From the IMG/VR virus record IMGVR_UViG_3300032294_002121, positions 1 to 22,714 of that record: a stretch of 22,714 nucleotides of DNA, one strand, 5' to 3'. The notes beneath the pieces are model-generated. The model was not told where the DNA came from and did no database searches. It saw only the letters and a program-made list of their open reading frames with translations. Shown here one piece after another: positions 564 to 22,714 of this stretch. Origin of the DNA: a virus. A program made the translations under genes and the position numbers. Positions within the stretch are counted from its first letter, which is position 1, and each line of letters starts with the position of its first letter.

Positions 564-3326
564 ATGCCAAACGAATTTGTAGCGCGCAATGGTATCATTG
601 CGCTTAATAACTCATCAATAACTGGTTCTTTAGGTGTATCCGGTGGTATCACTGGATCTCTATTTGGTACGGCCTCATGGGCATCAAATGCCGTTACATC
701 ATCTTATATATTAAATGCAGTAAGTGCTTCATTTGCATCAACAGCATCGTTTGTAAATCCACTTAGGCAAAATGTAATAATAACCGGATCAATACAGCTA
801 TCCGGATCTAAAAGTACATTTATTAATACAGCTGCTAATGACACTGTAGCTGAATTTGTTGCTGGTGGTTCTACTAATATAAGATTTAGTAGTGCAACCG
901 TTGGATCTTCTGCTGCTATGTTTATCCGTCCACAAGATGGATTATTACAAGGTCAAAACTACACCTACTTTAATATAGCAGCAGCAAGTGCTAAACTTAA
1001 ATTAAGTACAGATAATGCTGCTAATCCTATAGAAATGCAAGGTGGTAATGTATTAATCAATACATCTACCGACTCTGGGTTTAGGTTTGATGTCAACGGT
1101 ACTTCTCGTTTCACAAATAACATGCTTGTAACAGGTTCTGTTACAGCTACTTCTGCTACAATAAATGGTGCAGTAACATTATACTCAGTTCAGAAAAACA
1201 GTGCTGATCAAACTAATCCTTTACAAATATACAATGCCTTTAATAGTATCAACCCTAGAATTGAATTCTGGGGAGGTTCAGGAGCAAGATTACACTACAA
1301 TACTAGTACTAGAGTATTAAGCCCAGATACCGCTAGTGGTGTTGACTTAGGTACCTCAGCTTTAAATTTTGGTAATGTATTTTCTAATACAATTACAACA
1401 AACACATCATCCTTCTTTGCTACAGTAAGTGGTAGTGTAGGTATTGGTAAGACTACAGCAAACGCTCGCTTAGACGTTAGCGGCTCAGCTATTATAACAG
1501 GTTCTCTCACAGTAACCCAAGGCATTACAGGTTCTCTCCTCGGCACAGCATCCTTAGCAACAACAGCATCAAATGCTTTAACAGCATCATTCGTTCAAAA
1601 TGCTATATCTGCTTCATTTGCATCAACTGCTTCGTTTGTAACAACAGCTCAAACAGCATCATTCGTTCAAAATGCTGTTAGTGCATCGTTTGCAGCTACA
1701 GCATCATCAGCAGATAACTTCTTAGTAAGAGGTACACTTACAGCACAAACAATTGTTGCTCAAACAATTACCTCGTCTACTGATTTTGTAACTGGTTCTA
1801 CACGCTTCGGAAGTTTATCATCAAACACACATCAGTTTACTGGTAGTGTTAGTATAACTGGAAGTTTAACAGCCAATGTTGCTACTTCATCTTTTGTAGG
1901 ATCAATTACAAGTACAGGAAACGGCACTTTTGGTGGTACTATAGTTGGTGATAGAGGGGATGGGTTTCTTTATATGCAAGGATCTAGAGCAGCTGGATTT
2001 TTTATTCAAAACCTATTAGGACCTATAAACTTAAATGCTACCGGATCTTCACTTATTGGTGGATATGTTACTGTACGTAATTCACTTAGAGTATACTCTG
2101 ATAATGATGGAACAGATGGTGTATATATTTTACCTACCACCCTTAATACCAGAAATAGAGCAGGTACAGATTTCTTATTAATAGGAGCAGCTGAAACATC
2201 TTCTATAAAGATATTCAACAATGGAAATGTATTAATCCAAGATGCTGTATCTAGTGGAACATCTGATCCAGGATATAAGTTTAGTGTAAGTGGAAGTGCT
2301 AGATTTAGAAACAATGTAGAAATATCTGGTTCATTCACAGTATTTACAGGCAGCGCGGTTGAATTCCAGGTTACAAACACAGGCGTTAGAATGGGTAATA
2401 TAATTACCGATGCTCACACAGTAACAGGTTCATTCAATGTTAGTGGCAGTGTAACTGCTACTGGTAGTGTTAATATAGCAGGTGGCGTATCAGCATCAGG
2501 AAATATATATCAAGGAGGTACAGGTAATGCTTCTACAGTATTAGCAAGTAATGGAAATACTGCTTTAGTTACTATTTCAAGTACAGGAGCTACTATCAAC
2601 ATGGGTAGATTAGGAGCAGTAAGTTTACTTGCTAACTCTACTGATGGTGGTATTGTAATGAATGATGGAGCATATCTTGGAGTATCATCAGGCACACTTA
2701 GAATTGGTAGTAATCTTGCTGCTAATAATGTTGTCATAGGTAATTTTGCTAATTCAACAGCAACAATAAATGGTAATACTACTATAAGTGGTTCTACTGT
2801 AATAACAGGCTCCTTTACAGTCATCACAGGCAGCGCAGTTGAATTCCAGGTTACAAATACTGGTGTTAGAATAGGTAATGTAACTGCCGATGTTCATACA
2901 GTAACAGGTTCATTCAACATAAGTGGAAGTGGATTTGTACATGGAGGTGGATTTATAGTATCTGGTACATTAGCAACATCAGGTAGTGCCTCTCAAGGTT
3001 TAGTAGCACCACTTAAATTCACTACTGCCACAGCAAACACCAACTATACTTTAGTATACACAGATGAAGGAAAGATGGTTGAAATGAATAATAACGCTGA
3101 TGCTCCTTTAACAGTAACCATCCCATTAAATTCAAGTGTTTCTTTCCCAATAGGAACAGAAATTTCTATTATACAAATAGGAGGAGGAACAACTATAATT
3201 ACAGGAAGTAGTGGAGTAACAGTATATAGTTCTCTTGGAGTAAAAACTCTTCAAAACCCATACGACGTTGCCTCTGTTGTAAAACGCGGCACTGATAGTT
3301 GGTATCTATTTGGTAATTTAAGTTAA
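564..3326 (+). CDS. Long repetitive tail-fibre-like protein, 920 aa
   Basis: Probable receptor-binding or structural fibre, acting at the virion surface. The chain is almost entirely low-charge Ser/Thr/Gly/Ala/Asn-rich repeats. Two regions (about residues 13-70 and 310-390) carry units like TGSLxGTAS and SASFAxTASFV. The rest has beta-prone ITGSxxVSGS units and segments resembling those in other phage fibres (SVGIGKTTANARLDVSGSA, RFDVNGTSRF). A block containing GSAVEFQVTNTGVRxGN occurs twice, 160 residues apart. The last 110 residues form a distinct C-terminal domain (YTLVYTDEGKMVEMNNNAD, then TVTIP, then VVKRGTDSWYLFGNLS) of a type seen at the ends of phage fibre proteins. No S74 intramolecular chaperone is visible. 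The start at 564 follows ACAATATAA; no promoter motif was found in the 45-base gap, so it is probably cotranscribed with the gene before it. Confidence 0.8.
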   Translation: MPNEFVARNGIIALNNSSITGSLGVSGGITGSLFGTASWASNAVTSSYILNAVSASFASTASFVNPLRQNVIITGSIQLSGSKSTFINTAANDTVAEFVAGGSTNIRFSSATVGSSAAMFIRPQDGLLQGQNYTYFNIAAASAKLKLSTDNAANPIEMQGGNVLINTSTDSGFRFDVNGTSRFTNNMLVTGSVTATSATINGAVTLYSVQKNSADQTNPLQIYNAFNSINPRIEFWGGSGARLHYNTSTRVLSPDTASGVDLGTSALNFGNVFSNTITTNTSSFFATVSGSVGIGKTTANARLDVSGSAIITGSLTVTQGITGSLLGTASLATTASNALTASFVQNAISASFASTASFVTTAQTASFVQNAVSASFAATASSADNFLVRGTLTAQTIVAQTITSSTDFVTGSTRFGSLSSNTHQFTGSVSITGSLTANVATSSFVGSITSTGNGTFGGTIVGDRGDGFLYMQGSRAAGFFIQNLLGPINLNATGSSLIGGYVTVRNSLRVYSDNDGTDGVYILPTTLNTRNRAGTDFLLIGAAETSSIKIFNNGNVLIQDAVSSGTSDPGYKFSVSGSARFRNNVEISGSFTVFTGSAVEFQVTNTGVRMGNIITDAHTVTGSFNVSGSVTATGSVNIAGGVSASGNIYQGGTGNASTVLASNGNTALVTISSTGATINMGRLGAVSLLANSTDGGIVMNDGAYLGVSSGTLRIGSNLAANNVVIGNFANSTATINGNTTISGSTVITGSFTVITGSAVEFQVTNTGVRIGNVTADVHTVTGSFNISGSGFVHGGGFIVSGTLATSGSASQGLVAPLKFTTATANTNYTLVYTDEGKMVEMNNNADAPLTVTIPLNSSVSFPIGTEISIIQIGGGTTIITGSSGVTVYSSLGVKTLQNPYDVASVVKRGTDSWYLFGNLS
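1581..1604 (+). repeat. 24-bp direct repeat, copy 1 (in fibre gene)
   Basis: A 24-base segment beginning ACAGCATCATTCG is repeated exactly at 1653-1676, a 72-base (24-codon) offset. Both copies encode TASFVQNA, so the reading frame is kept and the protein repeat is reflected in near-identical DNA. Confidence 0.85.
1653..1676 (+). repeat. 24-bp direct repeat, copy 2 (in fibre gene)
   Basis: Exact second copy of the 24-base segment at 1581-1604. Identity at the third codon positions suggests recent duplication or recombination rather than only protein-level selection. Confidence 0.85.
2346..2437 (+). repeat. 92-bp imperfect direct repeat, copy 1 (in fibre gene)
   Basis: This block runs from ACAGGCAGCG to GTAACAGGTTCATTCAA and is repeated with scattered mismatches at 2826-2917, an offset of 480 bases (160 codons). 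It encodes TGSAVEFQVTNTGVR and the following residues through TVTGSFN. Confidence 0.8.
2826..2917 (+). repeat. 92-bp imperfect direct repeat, copy 2 (in fibre gene)
   Basis: Second copy of the block at 2346-2437. Most differences are third-position changes or conservative replacements (Met to Ile, Ile to Val), consistent with an in-frame duplication that has since diverged. Confidence 0.8.
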
Positions 3327-13666: not shown

Positions 13667-16600
13667 ATGTCAATATTTAAAGATACATTTCCTGAAGAAA
13701 TAAAAAAGCAAATAGAGGAACGCCAGAATCGTCTAGAAACAAGATCACCTAAAGACCTTTCCTATTTAACTTCTAGAAAAGCTTGGGTTAGATTAACATC
13801 TGGTGTTAACACATTAGAAGAAGGTGGTGAAGGAACCATAGTTCCTAGCAATAAATTAGCAAGACAATATGTTTTACAAGGCGGTACTTTATATGATACT
13901 ACTCCAAGTGATACCGGCTCTTACGGAGGTACTTTTAGACAAGGAGTAGGAAGCGATTCAAATAAAGCATATAGCACAACAACACCATCAGGAAAAACAC
14001 ATGACTTGGGCATTCGCCCAATGCCAGGTATTACTAATGTTGATATTAAAAGCAAATCAGCATATGGTTCACTAAGAGAGGCAACAGTAAATTTTGTTTG
14101 TTGGGATATAAAACAATTAGAAGATTTAGAATTGCTTTATATGCGCCCTGGTTTTACACTGTTATTAGAATGGGGTTGGTCTCCATATATTAATAATAGT
14201 GGTAGTTATACTACTACCGTTTCTACCTACGATGATTTCTTACTAGGAACATTCCCATCAGGAAGTAGTACTTTACAAGACATATACAAATATCTCCATG
14301 TTACCAAATCATTAATAGAATCAAATGGTAACTATGATGCAATGATTGGATATGTAAAAAATTTCCAATGGTCTTTCCGTTCGGATGGTGGGTATGATTG
14401 CCAAACAACAATTATTTCATTTGGTGAAGTATTAGAATCATTAAAAATAAATTATTCTGTTCTTAACATACCCATATCAGAAAAAAAGAATGGTTTTTTA
14501 GGAGTAGGACCAACAATATCTAAAGAAATATCAGATAATTTTCCAAAAGTATATGACAAAAGTAAATTATCTGGGATATTATACGAATTAGCGGCTTATT
14601 TAGATAATGATTTAAAAAATAAATCTTCTAAAAGTGCAGGGAATGATTATCGCAATACTTTTATAGGTGGTAGTTTATATAATTTATTTGCTCTAAATTT
14701 AAGATCCAAATCTGAAAACCAATCTACTTCTGACAAGAATGGTGTTATCACTCTTCCATCATCAGATGAATACCAATATTATATCACTTTAGGATCACTT
14801 TGTGATTTACTAAATAAGTATATATTAGTAAGTTCTGATAAAGGAAGTATAGTATCTGTATCTACCAAAAATAGAGAATATGGTGGGTCTGTGCAAAATC
14901 CTTCTACAACAACACCTAAAAGAGAAACTCCTCCTCAACCACCACCTAAAAAACAACCAATCCCTCCTAAAAGTTTGTCTGAAAGAATAAAAGAAATAGC
15001 TTCTTCTGCAATAGGAACAGTAGGTGAAGCTGCTGAAATTGCAGCTCAAGCTGTCACTGCTGCTGCTAATGAAATAAATCCAAATTCTCTTGATAAACTA
15101 AATTCAACATCTTTATTCTGTTTAACCCACCCCATACAGATATCTGTTGATCCATCTATATGTTTAATTAACTCACCAGTATGGAGAAATGGATTTGCTT
15201 TTCCTAAAACGGATGAAAATGTAAATGAAGCTACACCAGGCGCTATAGATGCTAATAGAGCAAACGGAGATGGAAACCCTACTCTTAGTGCTACTGCTAG
15301 AGGTATTGTTCAAAAAGTAATAGATTATGTATTGATAGGAGGACAACGTGGAGACAATGTTAAAATTAAAGATGAAATAAAAAAATATTTAGATATATCT
15401 GATGCTACACAACAAGAAAAAGCATTACAAGAATTTATCATTCAATATGAACTATTAAGAGGAGGAAAAATAAAAAAAACATATGTAACAGGAAACGGAA
15501 CTGTAGAAATAGAAACAACTCAGGGTCTTATTAGCTCAGATAGAACAAAGAAATATTCAGATACTGTCTTTCCTACTGCTGGAGAAAGTATACGATTCCC
15601 ATCAACAGCTGATTTTATTTCTAAAATGCCTGGTATTTCTTTTAACAATATTTTTTCTGAATTAAATTTAGATGATAATACTAAAAAGGCATATTTAAGT
15701 TATGTAAATAAACGTACCTTTACTGGTGTAGCTCAAACAGCAACTAGTCGTATAGAAACAAATGATGCTAGTGAAAAATCAGCAGAAGGATCTAAAACTA
15801 ATTTGAAATTTTTAAATGATTTGTTACCTTTCTTTAAAGATGATAATGGGCAATCAAATCAATCTTTTAATAATGGTTTAGGATACATATCAAACATATA
15901 TATTAATATAAATTACTTGTATCAACTATCATTAAACCAAAACTTAGAATCATTAGATAAAAAGGAAAAGAACGAAATTAATCTATATGACTATCTAAAA
16001 ACAATGATGGGATCTGTACAAACATCTATTGGAAATGTTAATAACTTTGATGTCCATGTTGATCCGATTGATAATATAGGTAGAGTAATAGATATTAATT
16101 TTACTAGTGAAAATCCTGAAGATGAATTTGATAAAGCAGTACTTATTGAAGTCCAAGGAACTAAAACCACTGCAACTAATACTAGCTTACAATCCCAAAT
16201 ATTCCCAGAACAAAGCAGCATTGTAGCTATATCCGCACAAAACGGTGGAGGAACATTAGGATTAGATAATAATACACTAGTAGGATTTAATCGAGGAATT
16301 AGAGATAGAGTATTGCCTGAAAAATATGCTCCTAGAGTAGGAATTATTCCTTCTAATGACATTAATACCCAACTAGCTAATTTAAAAGAATCTATTGGTA
16401 GTTTAGCTACATTTTTCAATGATTTAAGAGCACAATACACGGATAGTTGGTTTTCAAGAGATATTGTCCCTTCTTATAATTCATCTAATGCAGGAGAATA
16501 TAAAAATGCTTTGAAAGATATAATCAATACTATTAAAGCACTATCTAATGACCCTAACGAATTTAGATCTATTATTCCTACCAAAATATCCTTAACAATA

Positions 16601-17467
16601 GACGGTATTGGGGGTATAGTAATAGGAAACATATTTAGAATCCCTGAAGGTCGTCTCCCTAGAGGATATAAAGGAGAAAACGGAGTAGGTAGAAAATTAG
16701 GATATACTGTAACTGGGTTAAGCCACAGAATAGACACTAAATTTTGGGAAACTACAATTGATGCTCAAACAATTATATTGGAAAAAAACACTAATAAAAA
16801 CGGATTTAATTATAATAACATTATCATCCCTGACCCAAACAATCCAGGGGGGGTTAAATTCCAACCACCAGTTCAAACAAGTAAAGTAGGAGCTAATGAT
16901 TATAGTTATTCACCTGTAGCTCAGTATTATAAGAGTAAAACACCACCATATGCTAATGGTAATATACCAGACAGTGAATTAAGATATTTAAGAACAGATG
17001 ATGCTAGATCAAATAAAATCCATCGTTTACATCCAACAGCAGCCACCCAGTGGGAAAAATTAGTAGTAGCAGCAAGAAATGCTGGGTTTACAAAAGATAA
17101 ATTCAATATATCTTATATTGAAGATAAAAATTTTCCAACAAACTCACCATCCGCTTATAGATTGCGTGCCCAACAAAAATCAGGAGTCGGACGTGCAGAT
17201 CCAGGATCTTCACCTCACGGATGGGGAGGAGCAGTTGATATTCAACAATTAATAAATGCTCAACGAACAGCAGCTGGATTACCTCAAACAGCCCGTGCTG
17301 GTTTAGCAGCAGGGGCAAAACCAGCTGCTAAAGTTAGAGAAACTAATGAATTATATAAATGGCTTGCTCAAAATGGCCCTACTTATGGATGGTATAATCC
17401 ATCTAGATTAGCAGACGGAAGTGGACAAGACGAAGCTTGGCATTTTGAATATTGGGGACCAGTATAA
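13667..17467 (+). CDS. Baseplate hub protein with C-terminal M15 peptidoglycan peptidase, 1266 aa
   Basis: Probably combines a gp27-like hub with a cell-wall hydrolase. Near the N-terminus are DIKSKSAYGSLREATVNFVC and the LEWGWS strand (about 167-172), seen in hub proteins of T4-like marine phages. A proline-rich linker (PPQPPPKKQPIPP, about 421-434) divides the chain. A second hub-like segment (IDGIGGIVIGNIFRIPEGRL, about 978, then LGYTVTGLSHRIDTKFWETT) follows. The last 150 residues are an M15 (VanY-type) zinc peptidase: SSPHGWGGAVDI with H1184 and D1191, and DEAWHFEYWG with H1259 as third zinc ligand and E1256 as likely catalytic base. T4 instead uses a lysozyme in gp5. The enzyme would cut the peptide crosslinks during injection. 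The start is 5 bases after the gp53-like stop. Confidence 0.85.
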   Translation: MSIFKDTFPEEIKKQIEERQNRLETRSPKDLSYLTSRKAWVRLTSGVNTLEEGGEGTIVPSNKLARQYVLQGGTLYDTTPSDTGSYGGTFRQGVGSDSNKAYSTTTPSGKTHDLGIRPMPGITNVDIKSKSAYGSLREATVNFVCWDIKQLEDLELLYMRPGFTLLLEWGWSPYINNSGSYTTTVSTYDDFLLGTFPSGSSTLQDIYKYLHVTKSLIESNGNYDAMIGYVKNFQWSFRSDGGYDCQTTIISFGEVLESLKINYSVLNIPISEKKNGFLGVGPTISKEISDNFPKVYDKSKLSGILYELAAYLDNDLKNKSSKSAGNDYRNTFIGGSLYNLFALNLRSKSENQSTSDKNGVITLPSSDEYQYYITLGSLCDLLNKYILVSSDKGSIVSVSTKNREYGGSVQNPSTTTPKRETPPQPPPKKQPIPPKSLSERIKEIASSAIGTVGEAAEIAAQAVTAAANEINPNSLDKLNSTSLFCLTHPIQISVDPSICLINSPVWRNGFAFPKTDENVNEATPGAIDANRANGDGNPTLSATARGIVQKVIDYVLIGGQRGDNVKIKDEIKKYLDISDATQQEKALQEFIIQYELLRGGKIKKTYVTGNGTVEIETTQGLISSDRTKKYSDTVFPTAGESIRFPSTADFISKMPGISFNNIFSELNLDDNTKKAYLSYVNKRTFTGVAQTATSRIETNDASEKSAEGSKTNLKFLNDLLPFFKDDNGQSNQSFNNGLGYISNIYININYLYQLSLNQNLESLDKKEKNEINLYDYLKTMMGSVQTSIGNVNNFDVHVDPIDNIGRVIDINFTSENPEDEFDKAVLIEVQGTKTTATNTSLQSQIFPEQSSIVAISAQNGGGTLGLDNNTLVGFNRGIRDRVLPEKYAPRVGIIPSNDINTQLANLKESIGSLATFFNDLRAQYTDSWFSRDIVPSYNSSNAGEYKNALKDIINTIKALSNDPNEFRSIIPTKISLTIDGIGGIVIGNIFRIPEGRLPRGYKGENGVGRKLGYTVTGLSHRIDTKFWETTIDAQTIILEKNTNKNGFNYNNIIIPDPNNPGGVKFQPPVQTSKVGANDYSYSPVAQYYKSKTPPYANGNIPDSELRYLRTDDARSNKIHRLHPTAATQWEKLVVAARNAGFTKDKFNISYIEDKNFPTNSPSAYRLRAQQKSGVGRADPGSSPHGWGGAVDIQQLINAQRTAAGLPQTARAGLAAGAKPAAKVRETNELYKWLAQNGPTYGWYNPSRLADGSGQDEAWHFEYWGPV

Positions 17468-18102: not shown

Positions 18103-19407
18103 ATGTTTTACATAGTAGAAAGACAAGATCAATTATCTAAACTAAGCCCATTTGAAGATTGCTTCGTTAAGTTCATCCCACACAACGACAATTTCCATCC
18201 CAAACTTAGTCCGCTTAGCTTAATATACATCAGATCATTATCTGAACATAAGGGTTATATTTTGTGCTTAGACCACAATGAATCGTTTTCATTAGACAAA
18301 CAATCAGTTATTGATTGGCTTAATATTAATACAAACAAATTGTGGGTATTAAATAAAAAAGAGGCAATGTGTTGGTTTCCCAACGCTGATAAATTGTATG
18401 ATGTTAACTTTATTGAACAGCCCAACTTAACAGAAGCACTAAACATACCAGCTATTACGTTTTATTATAGCAAACATACCAACTATCCAACTGTAAATCG
18501 GCTGATTCCTATTAGCAAACACTACGAGGAATGCGAGAATGTATTTGATGTAGTACTACCTATAATCCAAAAATACCGAGCAAATAACGTTGCTTATGCG
18601 TTTAATAACGGCCCACTTACGCGCGTGTTTCACGAGATTGAATCGCAAGGTATTAAAGTAGATAAACAATGCTTCATTGATTGCTATGGCAATGATTTAA
18701 GATATCCTGAATTTAATTTGGCTAAAGGTAAAATATATAGCCAATATAACCTGTACACTACTACTGGTCGTCCATCCAACACCTACAACAGCATTAACTT
18801 TGCTGCATTAAATAAAAATAATGGTGAGCGAATGTGCTATAGACCACAAAATACTAAATTTATTGAACTTGATATTCAGGGATATCACCCACGATTAATT
18901 GGTGAAATGATTGATTTCAATTTCCCAAGCGATAGAAATTCATACGAATATTTAGGTGAATTGTTAGGTGTAAGCCAACAAGAGGCCAAAGAATTAACAT
19001 TCAAACAGCTATATGGTGGTGTTTGGGAGGAATATAAATACCAACCATTCTTCAAAGATGTAGCAAAATACGTTGATGAACTGTGGGATGAATTTCAATA
19101 CCAAGGGTACGTTAAAACACAAAACCGTTGCTTTAATCGCTCTGAATTACCAGATATGACGCCGGCTAAGTTGCTAAATTACGTCATCCAAAGCTGTGAG
19201 ACATCAACAAACGTTATGTTAATCAATGCAATACAGAACATATTAAAAAATAAACAAACCAAATTAGTGTTGTACACTTATGATGCATTTCTATTTGATT
19301 ATGCTAAAGAAGATGGCAACGAATTATTAACCGAAATCCAAGATATTATCCATTATCCTGTAAACATTAAGCAAGGTAATACATATCACGGCTTAACAAA
19401 AATCTAA
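18103..19407 (+). CDS. Compact family-A DNA polymerase-like protein, 434 aa
   Basis: The C-terminal half carries the palm and fingers motifs of family-A DNA polymerases in order: TTTGRPSN (R223, as in the usual TGRLSS), motif A FIELDIQGYHPR with catalytic D257, motif B AKELTFKQLYGG with K296 and Y304, and motif C LVLYTYDAFLFD with catalytic D394. Both metal-binding aspartates are kept. Upstream, GPLTRVFHEIESQGIKVDKQ (about 170-190) matches the segment that precedes the thumb in Pol I, yet only some 30 residues separate it from the TGR motif, so most of the thumb is missing. The first 160 residues may be a decayed exonuclease domain; no DxE motif or other catalytic acids are evident. Pol I Klenow is about 605 residues. 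T4 itself uses a family-B polymerase. The ATG at 18103 is preferred; an ATG at 18096 is out of frame and ends quickly. Confidence 0.82.
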   Translation: MFYIVERQDQLSKLSPFEDCFVKFIPHNDNFHPKLSPLSLIYIRSLSEHKGYILCLDHNESFSLDKQSVIDWLNINTNKLWVLNKKEAMCWFPNADKLYDVNFIEQPNLTEALNIPAITFYYSKHTNYPTVNRLIPISKHYEECENVFDVVLPIIQKYRANNVAYAFNNGPLTRVFHEIESQGIKVDKQCFIDCYGNDLRYPEFNLAKGKIYSQYNLYTTTGRPSNTYNSINFAALNKNNGERMCYRPQNTKFIELDIQGYHPRLIGEMIDFNFPSDRNSYEYLGELLGVSQQEAKELTFKQLYGGVWEEYKYQPFFKDVAKYVDELWDEFQYQGYVKTQNRCFNRSELPDMTPAKLLNYVIQSCETSTNVMLINAIQNILKNKQTKLVLYTYDAFLFDYAKEDGNELLTEIQDIIHYPVNIKQGNTYHGLTKI

Positions 19408-19413
19408 ATATTT

Positions 19414-19836
19414 ATGATGGCACAATTAAATGAATTTTTGGACTTGAACAAGTTATTTTGCACATTTACCTCGCCAGCAGACTTAGACGAGACGGTATCA
19501 ACGATTAATCGTAGATATGCGGTACTATTTAATAAAATATTTATTCTTGAGTCACCTCAAAGTGATGAGTTGATGTGTACCTATAATATTGATACTGGAA
19601 ACATGGCTTCATCTCCAATGTCTAATACAATATTGTTACACCGTAAAAAGGAAAGTAATACATTGTACACTATCAATGCACTTAATACTTTAATTATGTC
19701 ATTGAATGGTGGTAGATTAGATAAAAATTTCATCATTAATTGGCAGGACTATAAAAACAGTATATTGTTAACTAATGGTCCTGATTTGCGCCGTTTAGAT
19801 ACATCTATTCATAAAATTATAGATCTTAATAAATAA
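19414..19836 (+). CDS. Conserved hypothetical protein in replication cluster, 140 aa
   Basis: The function is unknown to me, but the pattern (VLFNKIFILESPQSDELMCT, YNIDTGN, SNTILLHRKKESNTLYTINA, then LNTLIMSLNGG and DKNFIINWQDYKNSILLTNG) looks like a conserved phage protein rather than a chance frame. It is soluble and mixed alpha/beta, with two cysteines that do not form a CxxC pair. It starts 6 bases after the polymerase stop, with two adjacent ATG codons (19414 and 19417); either could be used. Its stop overlaps the next start by one base. Its place between the polymerase and gp32 suggests a replication, repair or regulatory role, but nothing in the sequence proves this. Confidence 0.75.
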   Translation: MMAQLNEFLDLNKLFCTFTSPADLDETVSTINRRYAVLFNKIFILESPQSDELMCTYNIDTGNMASSPMSNTILLHRKKESNTLYTINALNTLIMSLNGGRLDKNFIINWQDYKNSILLTNGPDLRRLDTSIHKIIDLNK

Positions 19837-20186
19837 TGGCTACATACACCCCATCTCAGCTTTCTGGAACTGGTTCAATAGGTGAAAATCTATCAGGATT
19901 AAAAACATTTGCGTTTACTAACGCTAATCCTGCAACTAACTACTTTACTCTTGAAACTATACCTGGCCCTAGTGGATTTTATGTTAGTGGATCATCACCA
20001 TTTAATACATCAGGATCTTGGGTTGTATCTGCCTCTATGCTTACTGGATTTATAACATCATCATATATAGCATCAGTTGTGGTCCCTCCTGGTAGCTCAG
20101 CTTTGACCTTTACTCCTGCTATTAGTGTTGTTGGTACAACATATTACCTAAAAGGAACTGGAGATTTAACTTTAGTTATTTCTTAA
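19836..20186 (+). CDS. Hypothetical virion-like protein inside replication cluster, 116 aa
   Basis: Not recognised. Ser, Gly, Thr, Pro and aromatic residues dominate and there are almost no charges: GSIGENLSGLKTFAFTNANP, GPSGFYVSGSSPFNTSGSWV, then TGFITSSYIASVVVPPGSSA and a final GTTYYLKGTGDLTLVIS. This beta-rich composition, including the ITSSYIASV and GSW pieces, resembles the 920-residue fibre at the start of the window far more than the replication proteins around it. There is no cysteine, signal peptide or membrane helix. The start overlaps the previous stop (TAATG), so translation is coupled to the upstream gene. An 81-base gap with a promoter follows. A small capsid or fibre decoration protein would fit. 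Confidence 0.7.
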   Translation: MATYTPSQLSGTGSIGENLSGLKTFAFTNANPATNYFTLETIPGPSGFYVSGSSPFNTSGSWVVSASMLTGFITSSYIASVVVPPGSSALTFTPAISVVGTTYYLKGTGDLTLVIS

Positions 20187-20267: not shown

Positions 20268-21086
20268 ATGGACTTAAGTCTCATCAAGCAGAAGTTATCC
20301 GCTTCTCAAAACAAAGGACAAAAACGTGAAAAAGTAGATTACAGTAAAATCTTCTTTAAACCAAAACCAGGTAAATACCAGGTTCGTATTCTCCCCTCAA
20401 AATTCGACAAATCAAATCCGTTCCGTGAAGTTTACTTTCACTATGGTTTCTCTAAAGGACCAATTCTGGCCTTGACCAACTGGAACGAGAAAGATCCTAT
20501 CGTTGAGTTTGCAAAAAATCTCCGCAAATCCTCTGACAAAGAAGATTGGCAATTAGCTAAAAAAATTGAACCAAAACTCCGCTACTTCGTTCCTGTATTG
20601 GTACGTGGTGAAGAAGCACAAGGTGCTCGCCTATGGGAATTTGGTAAATTGATTTACGAGCAATTGCTTGGCATCGCTGCAGATGAAGATTATGGTGATT
20701 TTACAGACATTACTGATGGTCGTGATTTCACAATCGAAGCAGTAGAAGACGTTGTTGCTGGCCGTAAAGGTATCAAATGCAACATTCGCGTTAAACCAAA
20801 AACCTCTCCTATCTCTGAAGAAGGTGATGTAGTAACTAAAGCTTTGGAAGAACAACCAGACATTCTTACCATCAACAAACACTATTCGTTTGATGAATTG
20901 AAAGAATTGTTGGATAAATGGTTGAACCCAGAAGAAGACACTGAAGAACCAATCGCATCTAAAGACGAAGAGGAAGAAGATGAATTTATTACTGAAATGA
21001 ACAAGCCAGTAGAACAAACCTACAAACTTGACACTACAGCAACTAAGACATCTAACGCAGACAAATTCGACGATTTATTTAATTAA
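20268..21086 (+). CDS. gp32: Single-stranded DNA-binding protein (T4 gp32-like), 272 aa
   Basis: Coats single-stranded DNA in replication and recombination. The order is as in T4 gp32: a short basic N-terminus (LIKQKLSASQNKGQKREK), the start of the OB-fold core (IFFKPKPGKYQVRILPSKFD), the region FREVYFHYGFSKGPILAL, a helical part with RLWEFGKLIYEQLLGIA, then strand GIKCNIRVKPKTSP, and an acidic C-terminal tail (KDEEEEDEF about 228-236) ending NADKFDDLFN, like the acidic end used by gp32 to contact partner proteins. Length is near T4 (301 aa). The zinc-binding His/Cys cluster of T4 gp32 is absent: only one cysteine occurs. It is followed after 13 bases by uvsX, its functional partner. Confidence 0.88.
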   Translation: MDLSLIKQKLSASQNKGQKREKVDYSKIFFKPKPGKYQVRILPSKFDKSNPFREVYFHYGFSKGPILALTNWNEKDPIVEFAKNLRKSSDKEDWQLAKKIEPKLRYFVPVLVRGEEAQGARLWEFGKLIYEQLLGIAADEDYGDFTDITDGRDFTIEAVEDVVAGRKGIKCNIRVKPKTSPISEEGDVVTKALEEQPDILTINKHYSFDELKELLDKWLNPEEDTEEPIASKDEEEEDEFITEMNKPVEQTYKLDTTATKTSNADKFDDLFN

Positions 21087-21099
21087 TTAAAACTGATTT

Positions 21100-22206
21100 A
21101 TGGCGAAAGCAAAAAGCTCACTTAGTGAGGTTGTATCTGCCTCTTTAAAAGGTGGTTTCGATTTGGATAAGTTTAAAAAATCCAAATTCCTAGATCAATC
21201 CTCTAAATTTAAAAAACAGCGCTGGTTGACTTTCTCACCAGCACTACGTGATGCGCTTTCAATTCCTGGTATTCCTCTGGGCCACGTATTCGTGGCTCGA
21301 GGAGGCTCGGATACAGGTAAAACTACTATGCTAATTGAAGCGGCAGTTGAAGCTCAAAAGCAAGGTATATTGCCTGTATTTATCATTACTGAAATGAAAT
21401 GGGACTTCTCACACGCTCAGAAAATGGGATTCCAGTGTGAAGCAGTTCCTGATGATGCAACTGGAGAAGTGGTAGATTATAAAGGATTCTTCCTCTATGT
21501 AGATAGATCCTCTCTAAACACTATCGAAGATGTATCTCATTTCATTGCTGATATTTTAAGCGAACAAAAAGACGGAAAATTACCTCATGACTTATTGTTC
21601 CTATGGGATTCAGTAGGTTCTATTCCATGCGAAATGAGCGTTAAACAAGGTAATAATAATCCTATGTGGAATGCAGGCGCAATGGCAACTCAATTTGGTA
21701 ATTTTATTAACCAACAATTTCCACTATCACGTAAAGAAAGTTATCCACACACCAATACATTATTTGTAATTAACAAAACAGGTGTACAACCAGCATTAAC
21801 TCCTATGAGTCAACCTCGTATGACTAATAAAGGTGGTAACTCAATGTATTGGGATGCTACAATCGTAGCTACATTTGGTAACGTTACTAATAGTGGTACT
21901 TCAAAAATTAGCGTACAGCATAAGGGTAAAAAGGTTGAATTTGCTAAACGCACCAAAATCGCTATCGATAAGATTCATGCTGATTATGGTATTGCTACTG
22001 CATCAACAGTACTTGTTACTCCCCACGGCTTTATCCCAGACACACCAGAGGCAATTAAAGAATATAAGAAAACTTATGCCCACGAGTGGTTTAATGAAGC
22101 CATCGATGTATCTGACCTAGTACAGGTTGAAGATAACAGCGAATGGGAAGAAAGCAGTAAAATATCACCAACAATCGAAATCGATAACGAAGGAAATGAA
22201 GAATAA
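21100..22206 (+). CDS. uvsX: RecA-like recombinase UvsX, 368 aa
   Basis: Strand-exchange ATPase that forms filaments on single-stranded DNA and drives recombination-dependent replication. Visible features: Walker A GGSDTGKTT with K74, strand and loop VFIITEMKWDFSHAQKMG holding the likely catalytic Glu, Walker B LLFLWDSVGS with D170, and the L2-region TLFVINKTGVQP followed by KGGNSMYWDATIVATFGNV. Length is close to T4 UvsX (391 aa). It is Walker-type RecA but with GGSDTG in place of the bacterial GPESSG. The C-terminus is acidic (EDNSEWEESSKIS). It overlaps the following exonuclease start by 11 bases and is probably cotranscribed with gp32 upstream. Confidence 0.93.
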   Translation: MAKAKSSLSEVVSASLKGGFDLDKFKKSKFLDQSSKFKKQRWLTFSPALRDALSIPGIPLGHVFVARGGSDTGKTTMLIEAAVEAQKQGILPVFIITEMKWDFSHAQKMGFQCEAVPDDATGEVVDYKGFFLYVDRSSLNTIEDVSHFIADILSEQKDGKLPHDLLFLWDSVGSIPCEMSVKQGNNNPMWNAGAMATQFGNFINQQFPLSRKESYPHTNTLFVINKTGVQPALTPMSQPRMTNKGGNSMYWDATIVATFGNVTNSGTSKISVQHKGKKVEFAKRTKIAIDKIHADYGIATASTVLVTPHGFIPDTPEAIKEYKKTYAHEWFNEAIDVSDLVQVEDNSEWEESSKISPTIEIDNEGNEE

Positions 22207-22714
22207 ATACGCGGACATGATGTCCAAGATTAACAATGATCAGCGTGGAATCTCTGACTCCATTCTGATTATTGATGGTCTAAATACGTTTCTAAGATCA
22301 TTTACAATGATCAATCACATCAATCCAGATGGAGCCCACATTGGTGGGCTCACTGGGTTTTTGAAATCAGTTGGTTATGCTATCAAAATGCTAGAACCAA
22401 CTAAAGTAATTATTGTGTTTGATGGAGCTGGAGGTTCTAATGCCAAACGAAATTTATATCCTGAATATAAAGCAAACAGGAATAAAACTCGAATGACTAA
22501 TTACTCTATCTTTAGTTCTAAAGATGAAGAGAACGAGTCTATCAATAATCAGATGGCAAGATTGATTCAGTATCTTCAATGCCTACCAGTTACAATGATT
22601 GTAGTAGATGGAATTGAAGCAGATGATACAATTGGCTATTTAGTAGGTAAATTTGAAAAATTTAATGCTACTAAAGAAGTAACAATATTATCAGCTGATA
22701 AAGATTTCCTTCAA
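22196..22714 (+). CDS. rnh: 5'-3' exonuclease / flap endonuclease (T4 RNase H-like), partial at window end
   Basis: The reading frame is open from 22196 to the last base (173 codons) with no stop, so the gene is cut by the window edge. It belongs to the FEN/T4 RNase H family: SILIIDGLNTFLRSF with D27, VIIVFDGAGGSNAKRNLYPE with D76 and the conserved Lys/Arg helical arch residues, YKANRNKTR, then the acidic pairs GIEADDTIGYLV (E141, D143, D144) and ILSADKDFLQ (D168, D170), which bind two metal ions. It removes RNA primers and flaps during lagging-strand synthesis. The start at 22196 overlaps the end of uvsX by 11 bases; ATG codons at 22217 and 22220 are alternative starts just before the conserved part. 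T4 RNase H is 305 aa, so roughly 130 residues may be missing. Confidence 0.9.
   Translation, partial: MKNKYADMMSKINNDQRGISDSILIIDGLNTFLRSFTMINHINPDGAHIGGLTGFLKSVGYAIKMLEPTKVIIVFDGAGGSNAKRNLYPEYKANRNKTRMTNYSIFSSKDEENESINNQMARLIQYLQCLPVTMIVVDGIEADDTIGYLVGKFEKFNATKEVTILSADKDFLQ

Follow-up and report, generated by a model that had tools for sequence, protein, structure and literature searches.

A divPolA1-type family-A DNA polymerase and its small companion protein in aquatic T4-like phages

Introduction

The viral DNA analysed here is a single stretch of 22,714 nt (hereafter the window), in which the open reading frame at 18103-19407 on the plus strand runs from ATG to TAA and encodes a protein of 434 aa. 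This protein is almost certainly a member of the divPolA1 family of DNA polymerases, a family with a truncated thumb and a degenerate exonuclease domain. On balance, we favour for divPolA1 a predicted role as an accessory, short-patch, non-proofreading polymerase for gap filling or coupled to recombination, and not as the main replicase.

The family was reported in 2024 in 14 phages, including Flavobacterium phage immuto (PMC11348598, Virol J). As described in the sections of that paper drawn on here, its members have a truncated thumb and replaced exonuclease aspartates, and they occur alongside a regular polymerase that belongs to family A, B or C (PMC11348598). The window protein thus adds a member to a family already described, and the novelty implied by the initial annotation does not stand. 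In a full-text literature search, the name divPolA1 was found only in this paper and its preprint. The features newly added here are the wide spread of the family, a fixed histidine in the active site (H262) and a companion protein encoded next to the polymerase, the latter two not being mentioned in PMC11348598 as far as those sections show. The family matters in that so reduced a polymerase is retained within the recombination and replication block of hundreds of aquatic phages, while the main replicase differs among them. The positions of the features are summarized in Table 1.

Table 1. Features at and downstream of the polymerase gene in the window
Feature	Position	Strand	Basis
divPolA1-type family-A DNA polymerase	18103..19407	+	434 aa; motifs, family profile, AlphaFold2, hhalign, immuto homology
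Degenerate 3'-5' exonuclease-like domain, residues 1-160	18103..18582	+	AlphaFold2 alignment from residue 1, column composition; register inferred
Polymerase-domain start and thumb remnant of about 30 residues, residues 163-222	18589..18768	+	sequence, AlphaFold2, hhalign
T-x-R-P-S/T-N motif, R223 equivalent to Klenow R668	18763..18780	+	T221, R223, P224, N226 in 68/68 clusters
Motif A, residues 252-269; catalytic D257, H262	18856..18909	+	cluster alignment, hhalign
Motif B, residues 292-305: K296, F300, Y304, G305; Klenow R754 position not conserved	18976..19017	+	cluster alignment, hhalign
Motif C, residues 387-400; Y393-D394-A395 instead of H-D-E	19261..19302	+	cluster alignment, hhalign
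Small companion protein, 140 aa, no family match; alpha/beta N-terminal part	19414..19836	+	linkage to divPolA1; AlphaFold2 pLDDT 90.5
gp32-like single-strand DNA-binding protein	20268..21086	+	PF08804, E 6.8e-13
UvsX/RecA-like recombinase	21100..22206	+	PF00154, E 9.4e-8; phrog_97, E 7e-15
5'-3' exonuclease (FEN / Pol I N-terminal type), cut by window end	22217..22714	+	immuto homology

Identification of the polymerase

The initial annotation described a miniature family-A polymerase that keeps both catalytic aspartates, and the motifs, hhalign and the predicted structure bear this out. The family-A motifs lie at the positions it claimed, namely R223 in TTTGRPSN, D257 in motif A, K296 and Y304 in motif B and D394 in motif C; motif B also contains F300 and G305. 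The loci that were fetched yielded 203 distinct full-length proteins, which fall into 68 clusters at 80% identity. R223, D257, K296, F300, Y304, G305 and D394 are identical in all 68 clusters, and T221, P224, N226, N232, H262, K356, Y360, Q363, E366, T367, N370, Y391 and Y393 are likewise invariant, while G222 of the 'TGR' motif is variable (S, G, T, R or K).

With the Pfam model DNA_pol_A (PF00476), the window protein scores 18.1 bits (E 0.0014), under the cut-off of 34.3, a gathering score that is a detection threshold and not a structural criterion. Alone, it thus falls below the cut-off, and relatives are needed for the family assignment. Matches to DNA_pol_A were obtained for 15 of 66 family members (best E 7e-13), and the immuto protein gp001 passes the cut-off with 43.9 bits over its frame. 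The divPolA1 family profile matches Klenow, and hhalign aligns the family with Pol I at 96% probability. No DNA_pol_B domain was found in the open reading frame at 18103-19407, DNA_pol_A being the sole polymerase family matched in Pfam.

An AlphaFold2 model based on an alignment of 64 family members has a mean pLDDT of 95.5 and a pTM of 0.91, and was also submitted to a Foldseek search. It superposes on the Bst Pol I large fragment with Z 25.5 (rmsd 4.2, 404 residues) and on Klenow (1kfd) with Z 23.7 over 421 residues, and thereby recovers the palm/fingers fold of Pol I. Model residues 1-432 align to Klenow 329-928, that is, over the full length, so the first 160 residues or so take the place of the exonuclease domain rather than forming a domain of a novel type. 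Judged by column composition, the first strand of this domain does not end in a conserved Asp-x-Glu pair, the exo II position has an invariant lysine (K86) nearby, and E142 is the only fully conserved acid near exo III, in a register taken from secondary structure and not from residue-level superposition. The claim that the N-terminal 160 residues have no exonuclease acids therefore holds except for E142. In this register, the domain appears to be dead, with its fold kept and its catalytic acids gone bar E142. Of the thumb, about 30 residues are left to link the first polymerase helix to the TGR motif, as had been noted. Taken together, the lineage looks reduced from a Pol I-like ancestor with exonuclease and polymerase domains, in which the exonuclease fold would have been kept in inactive form and the thumb nearly lost, with the catalytic residues of the palm and fingers retained.

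Between near relatives, dN/dS is 0.02-0.10, a sign of strong purifying selection. With its invariant catalytic residues (68/68 clusters) and low dN/dS, the enzyme is probably active. That divPolA1 is instead a catalytically dead polymerase, retained for a structural or regulatory role, is highly improbable: the exonuclease part is inactive and some nucleotide-contact residues are altered, but D257, D394, R223, K296, F300, Y304 and Q363 are unchanged throughout the clusters and purifying selection is strong.

Active-site substitutions

In the hhalign alignment with Pol I, H262 takes the place of Klenow Glu710, and the histidine is fixed in 68/68 clusters. Q292 aligns with Klenow Arg754, an arginine that is not conserved in divPolA1, and Y393-D394-A395 aligns with His881-Asp882-Glu883, the motif being Y-D-A/S family-wide. 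F300 (Klenow 762) and Y304 (Klenow 766) are retained. In Pol I, Glu710 is the steric gate against ribonucleotides (PMC13228545).

These changes could be read as the mark of a translesion or specialised-substrate polymerase, whose altered active site would serve lesion bypass or the use of modified nucleotides or ribonucleotides. The three substitutions are fixed or family-wide, one of them at the steric gate, and the exonuclease is not functional. We nevertheless regard this reading as doubtful, as these residues cannot reveal substrate choice, the residues around the incoming nucleotide (F300 and Y304) are retained, and lesion-tolerance genes were not seen in the gene context.

Distribution of the family

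Hundreds of relatives of divPolA1 are present in aquatic T4-like phages. The first scan for relatives gave 19 loci with 64-99% identity to the window protein; further scans gave 312 matching stretches with the immuto protein, at least 588 with the family profile and 109 with the Microcystis-phage protein, sets that may overlap. A scan with the protein from LR756508, a 484-kb record, found no relatives. Immuto gp001 shares 35.3% identity with the window protein over 98% of the query (E 8e-73). It also matched MT837804 and MT839648, human-gut phage records whose matching genes proved to be ordinary bacterial Pol I genes and not close relatives.

A split family-A polymerase exists in Rhodothermus phage RM378; this phage was present in the phage collection and absent from the tblastn matches. 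In a tree of the 68 representatives, of which few tips are labelled, the labelled members of the immuto clade go with PolA and the labelled others with PolB.

Gene neighbourhood

The gene lies in a T4-type phage, as the initial annotation had stated, with gp32-, UvsX-, tail-sheath-, T4 baseplate- and gp19-like genes nearby. The partial exonuclease at the window end is 52.5% identical over 158 aa to the immuto 5'-3' exonuclease, which matches PF02739. Downstream of divPolA1, where the flank could be assessed, gp32 is present in 163 of 166 loci, UvsX in 127/127, the 5'-3' exonuclease in 107 of 109 and DnaB in 54/54. In immuto, the order is gp001, a relative of the small companion protein, a gene with no assigned function, single-strand DNA-binding protein, recombinase, 5'-3' exonuclease and DnaB helicase; Microcystis phage Mel-JY01 and LR756508 keep this order, interrupted here and there by additional genes. 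In short, the type of replicative polymerase varies between phages, while divPolA1 stays with gp32, UvsX, the 5'-3' exonuclease and DnaB.

Other genes of the window were also recorded. A protein of 1266 aa (13667-17467) adjoins the baseplate genes, has a C-terminal VanY-type D,D-carboxypeptidase domain and is probably a cell-wall-cutting tail protein. A protein of 920 aa (564-3326) with many short ITGSL/TASF-type repeats and a weak Bactofilin match is probably a tail fibre.

The companion protein

Of 234 loci that could be assessed, 225 encode a relative of the small companion protein no more than 700 nt downstream of divPolA1. In the reverse search with the companion profile, counted in the best 80 loci, a sample of nearer relatives, divPolA1 was upstream in 59/59 loci with at least 1.6 kb of upstream sequence and in 19 of the 21 with less. 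Searches of 50,697 phage records gave significant E-values for the two proteins in an identical set of six, in which immuto accounts for four entries. The companion is the more conserved of the two, with 59% identity to its immuto relative compared with 35% for divPolA1, and 22 positions are invariant in 26 sequences, including K41, H76, K78, N82, Y85 and W110.

No convincing match to the companion was found in Pfam, PHROG or the PDB sequences. Its fold matches are weak (Z 6.2 or less, residues 7-75 or so), and a Foldseek search with its model returned one clear viral match, an uncharacterised protein of 126 aa. In the window, a 116-aa reading frame of structural-protein-like composition (19836-20186) lies between the companion and gp32 and shares one base with the stop codon of the companion; another gene occupies this place in immuto.

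The companion is the obvious candidate partner of divPolA1. A tentative and rather unlikely extension is that the two proteins assemble into one polymerase of two subunits, with the companion holding the primer-template in the stead of the lost thumb, and that H262 gives the enzyme an unusual choice of substrates, for instance in gap filling that tolerates ribonucleotides. Should the companion indeed take over from the thumb, this would be a novel design for a polymerase, and the strict linkage makes the idea directly testable with two small genes.

A second, full-size polymerase in relatives

Seventeen of 18 related records of at least 100 kb also have a full-size polymerase, which is PolB in 11 records and PolA in six; PolC (PF07733) was not found in these 18 records. 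G020, the sole record in which no second polymerase was detected, may well be a fragment. Where the full-size polymerases were scanned, exonuclease domains were found. Immuto, Mel-JY01 and LR756508 likewise have a second polymerase beside divPolA1: a full-size PolA with an exonuclease domain (gp199) in immuto, an intact PolB in Mel-JY01 and a PolB in pieces in LR756508. PolB in two open frames or partial form was seen in LR756508 (W02:260623-266900), G012:86123-86770, G019:53555-55532 and G031:31919-33765, which may reflect a split gene, an intron or an intein.

The window record is 22.7 kb, so we infer its own second polymerase from relatives. The nearest, G001, is 96% identical in the divPolA1 protein and has PolB, as do G002-G004; in these four nearest large records PolB is encoded in uninterrupted frames of 861-872 aa, its exonuclease and polymerase motifs can be recognised in the sequence, and G001 has both Pfam domains. 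Of eight records searched for a separate DnaQ-like exonuclease (PF00929), only LR756508 gave a match.

Among G001-G004, identities are 77-84% for PolB, 65-79% for divPolA1, 64-78% for the 5'-3' exonuclease, 81-92% for gp32 and 80-89% for DnaB. In these four records, divPolA1 is thus less conserved than PolB and changes at a pace like that of the 5'-3' exonuclease.

A further observation concerns immuto, in which the region NC_055915 18607-37015 (L021) contains queuosine-type genes and a gene for a DpdA-like transglycosylase. The DNA of this phage may therefore be 7-deazaguanine-modified, and such a modification could be relevant to the presence of two polymerases in immuto.

Role of divPolA1

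The initial annotation offered two readings, a reduced replicative enzyme that borrows a partner or a specialised polymerase. The former is unlikely, because 17 of the 18 large records have a full-size polymerase too, and the latter fits better.

As an accessory polymerase, divPolA1 would make short stretches of DNA near the gp32/UvsX machinery, filling gaps or extending the ends of recombination intermediates or Okazaki fragments, and the adjoining 5'-3' exonuclease would contribute nick translation, so that the two together would amount to a 'split Pol I'. Since it has neither a complete thumb nor proofreading, divPolA1 is expected to be distributive and of lower fidelity unless a partner helps.

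A rival with a modest chance of being right is that divPolA1 itself replicates the genome, alone or as one of two replicases that might, for example, each copy one strand, with the companion conferring processivity and the full-size polymerase doing repair or other work. divPolA1 does sit in the sole conserved replication block, whereas the regular polymerase varies in type and neighbourhood, and the companion is almost always present. The authors of PMC11348598 also lean toward replication, suggesting from the conserved neighbourhood that divPolA1 'is involved in replication' and judging the gene contexts of the regular polymerases less telling, in the sections of the paper drawn on here. However, divPolA1 has neither proofreading nor a thumb, nearly all large records encode a full-size polymerase, and PolB is the better conserved enzyme in G001-G004. 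An accessory role for divPolA1 thus remains the reading that we prefer.

Comparison with known systems

The window protein resembles the published divPolA1, as characterised in the sections of PMC11348598 drawn on here, in size, truncated thumb, inactive exonuclease, conserved palm and downstream replication genes, and a regular polymerase alongside is predicted for it from its relatives. It is only about 35% identical to the immuto member and belongs to another clade, whose sampled large records have PolB. The regular PolA of immuto, gp199, is also of family A and shares its genome with a divPolA1, but it has 777 aa, exonuclease motifs and a match to PF01612.

With Klenow and the Bst large fragment, the window protein shares the architecture of an exonuclease-like and a polymerase domain (Z 23.7-25.5), but it is about 150-170 residues shorter, its thumb is a remnant and the exonuclease acids are absent. 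Compared with Klenow, it also has E710 replaced by H and H881-D-E883 by Y-D-A/S, and R754 is not conserved. The divPolA2 of barbaviruses, as far as it is described in those sections of PMC11348598, is likewise an accessory thumbless family-A polymerase beside PolB, but that description sets it apart from divPolA1 by an unrelated N-terminal domain and a variable neighbourhood.
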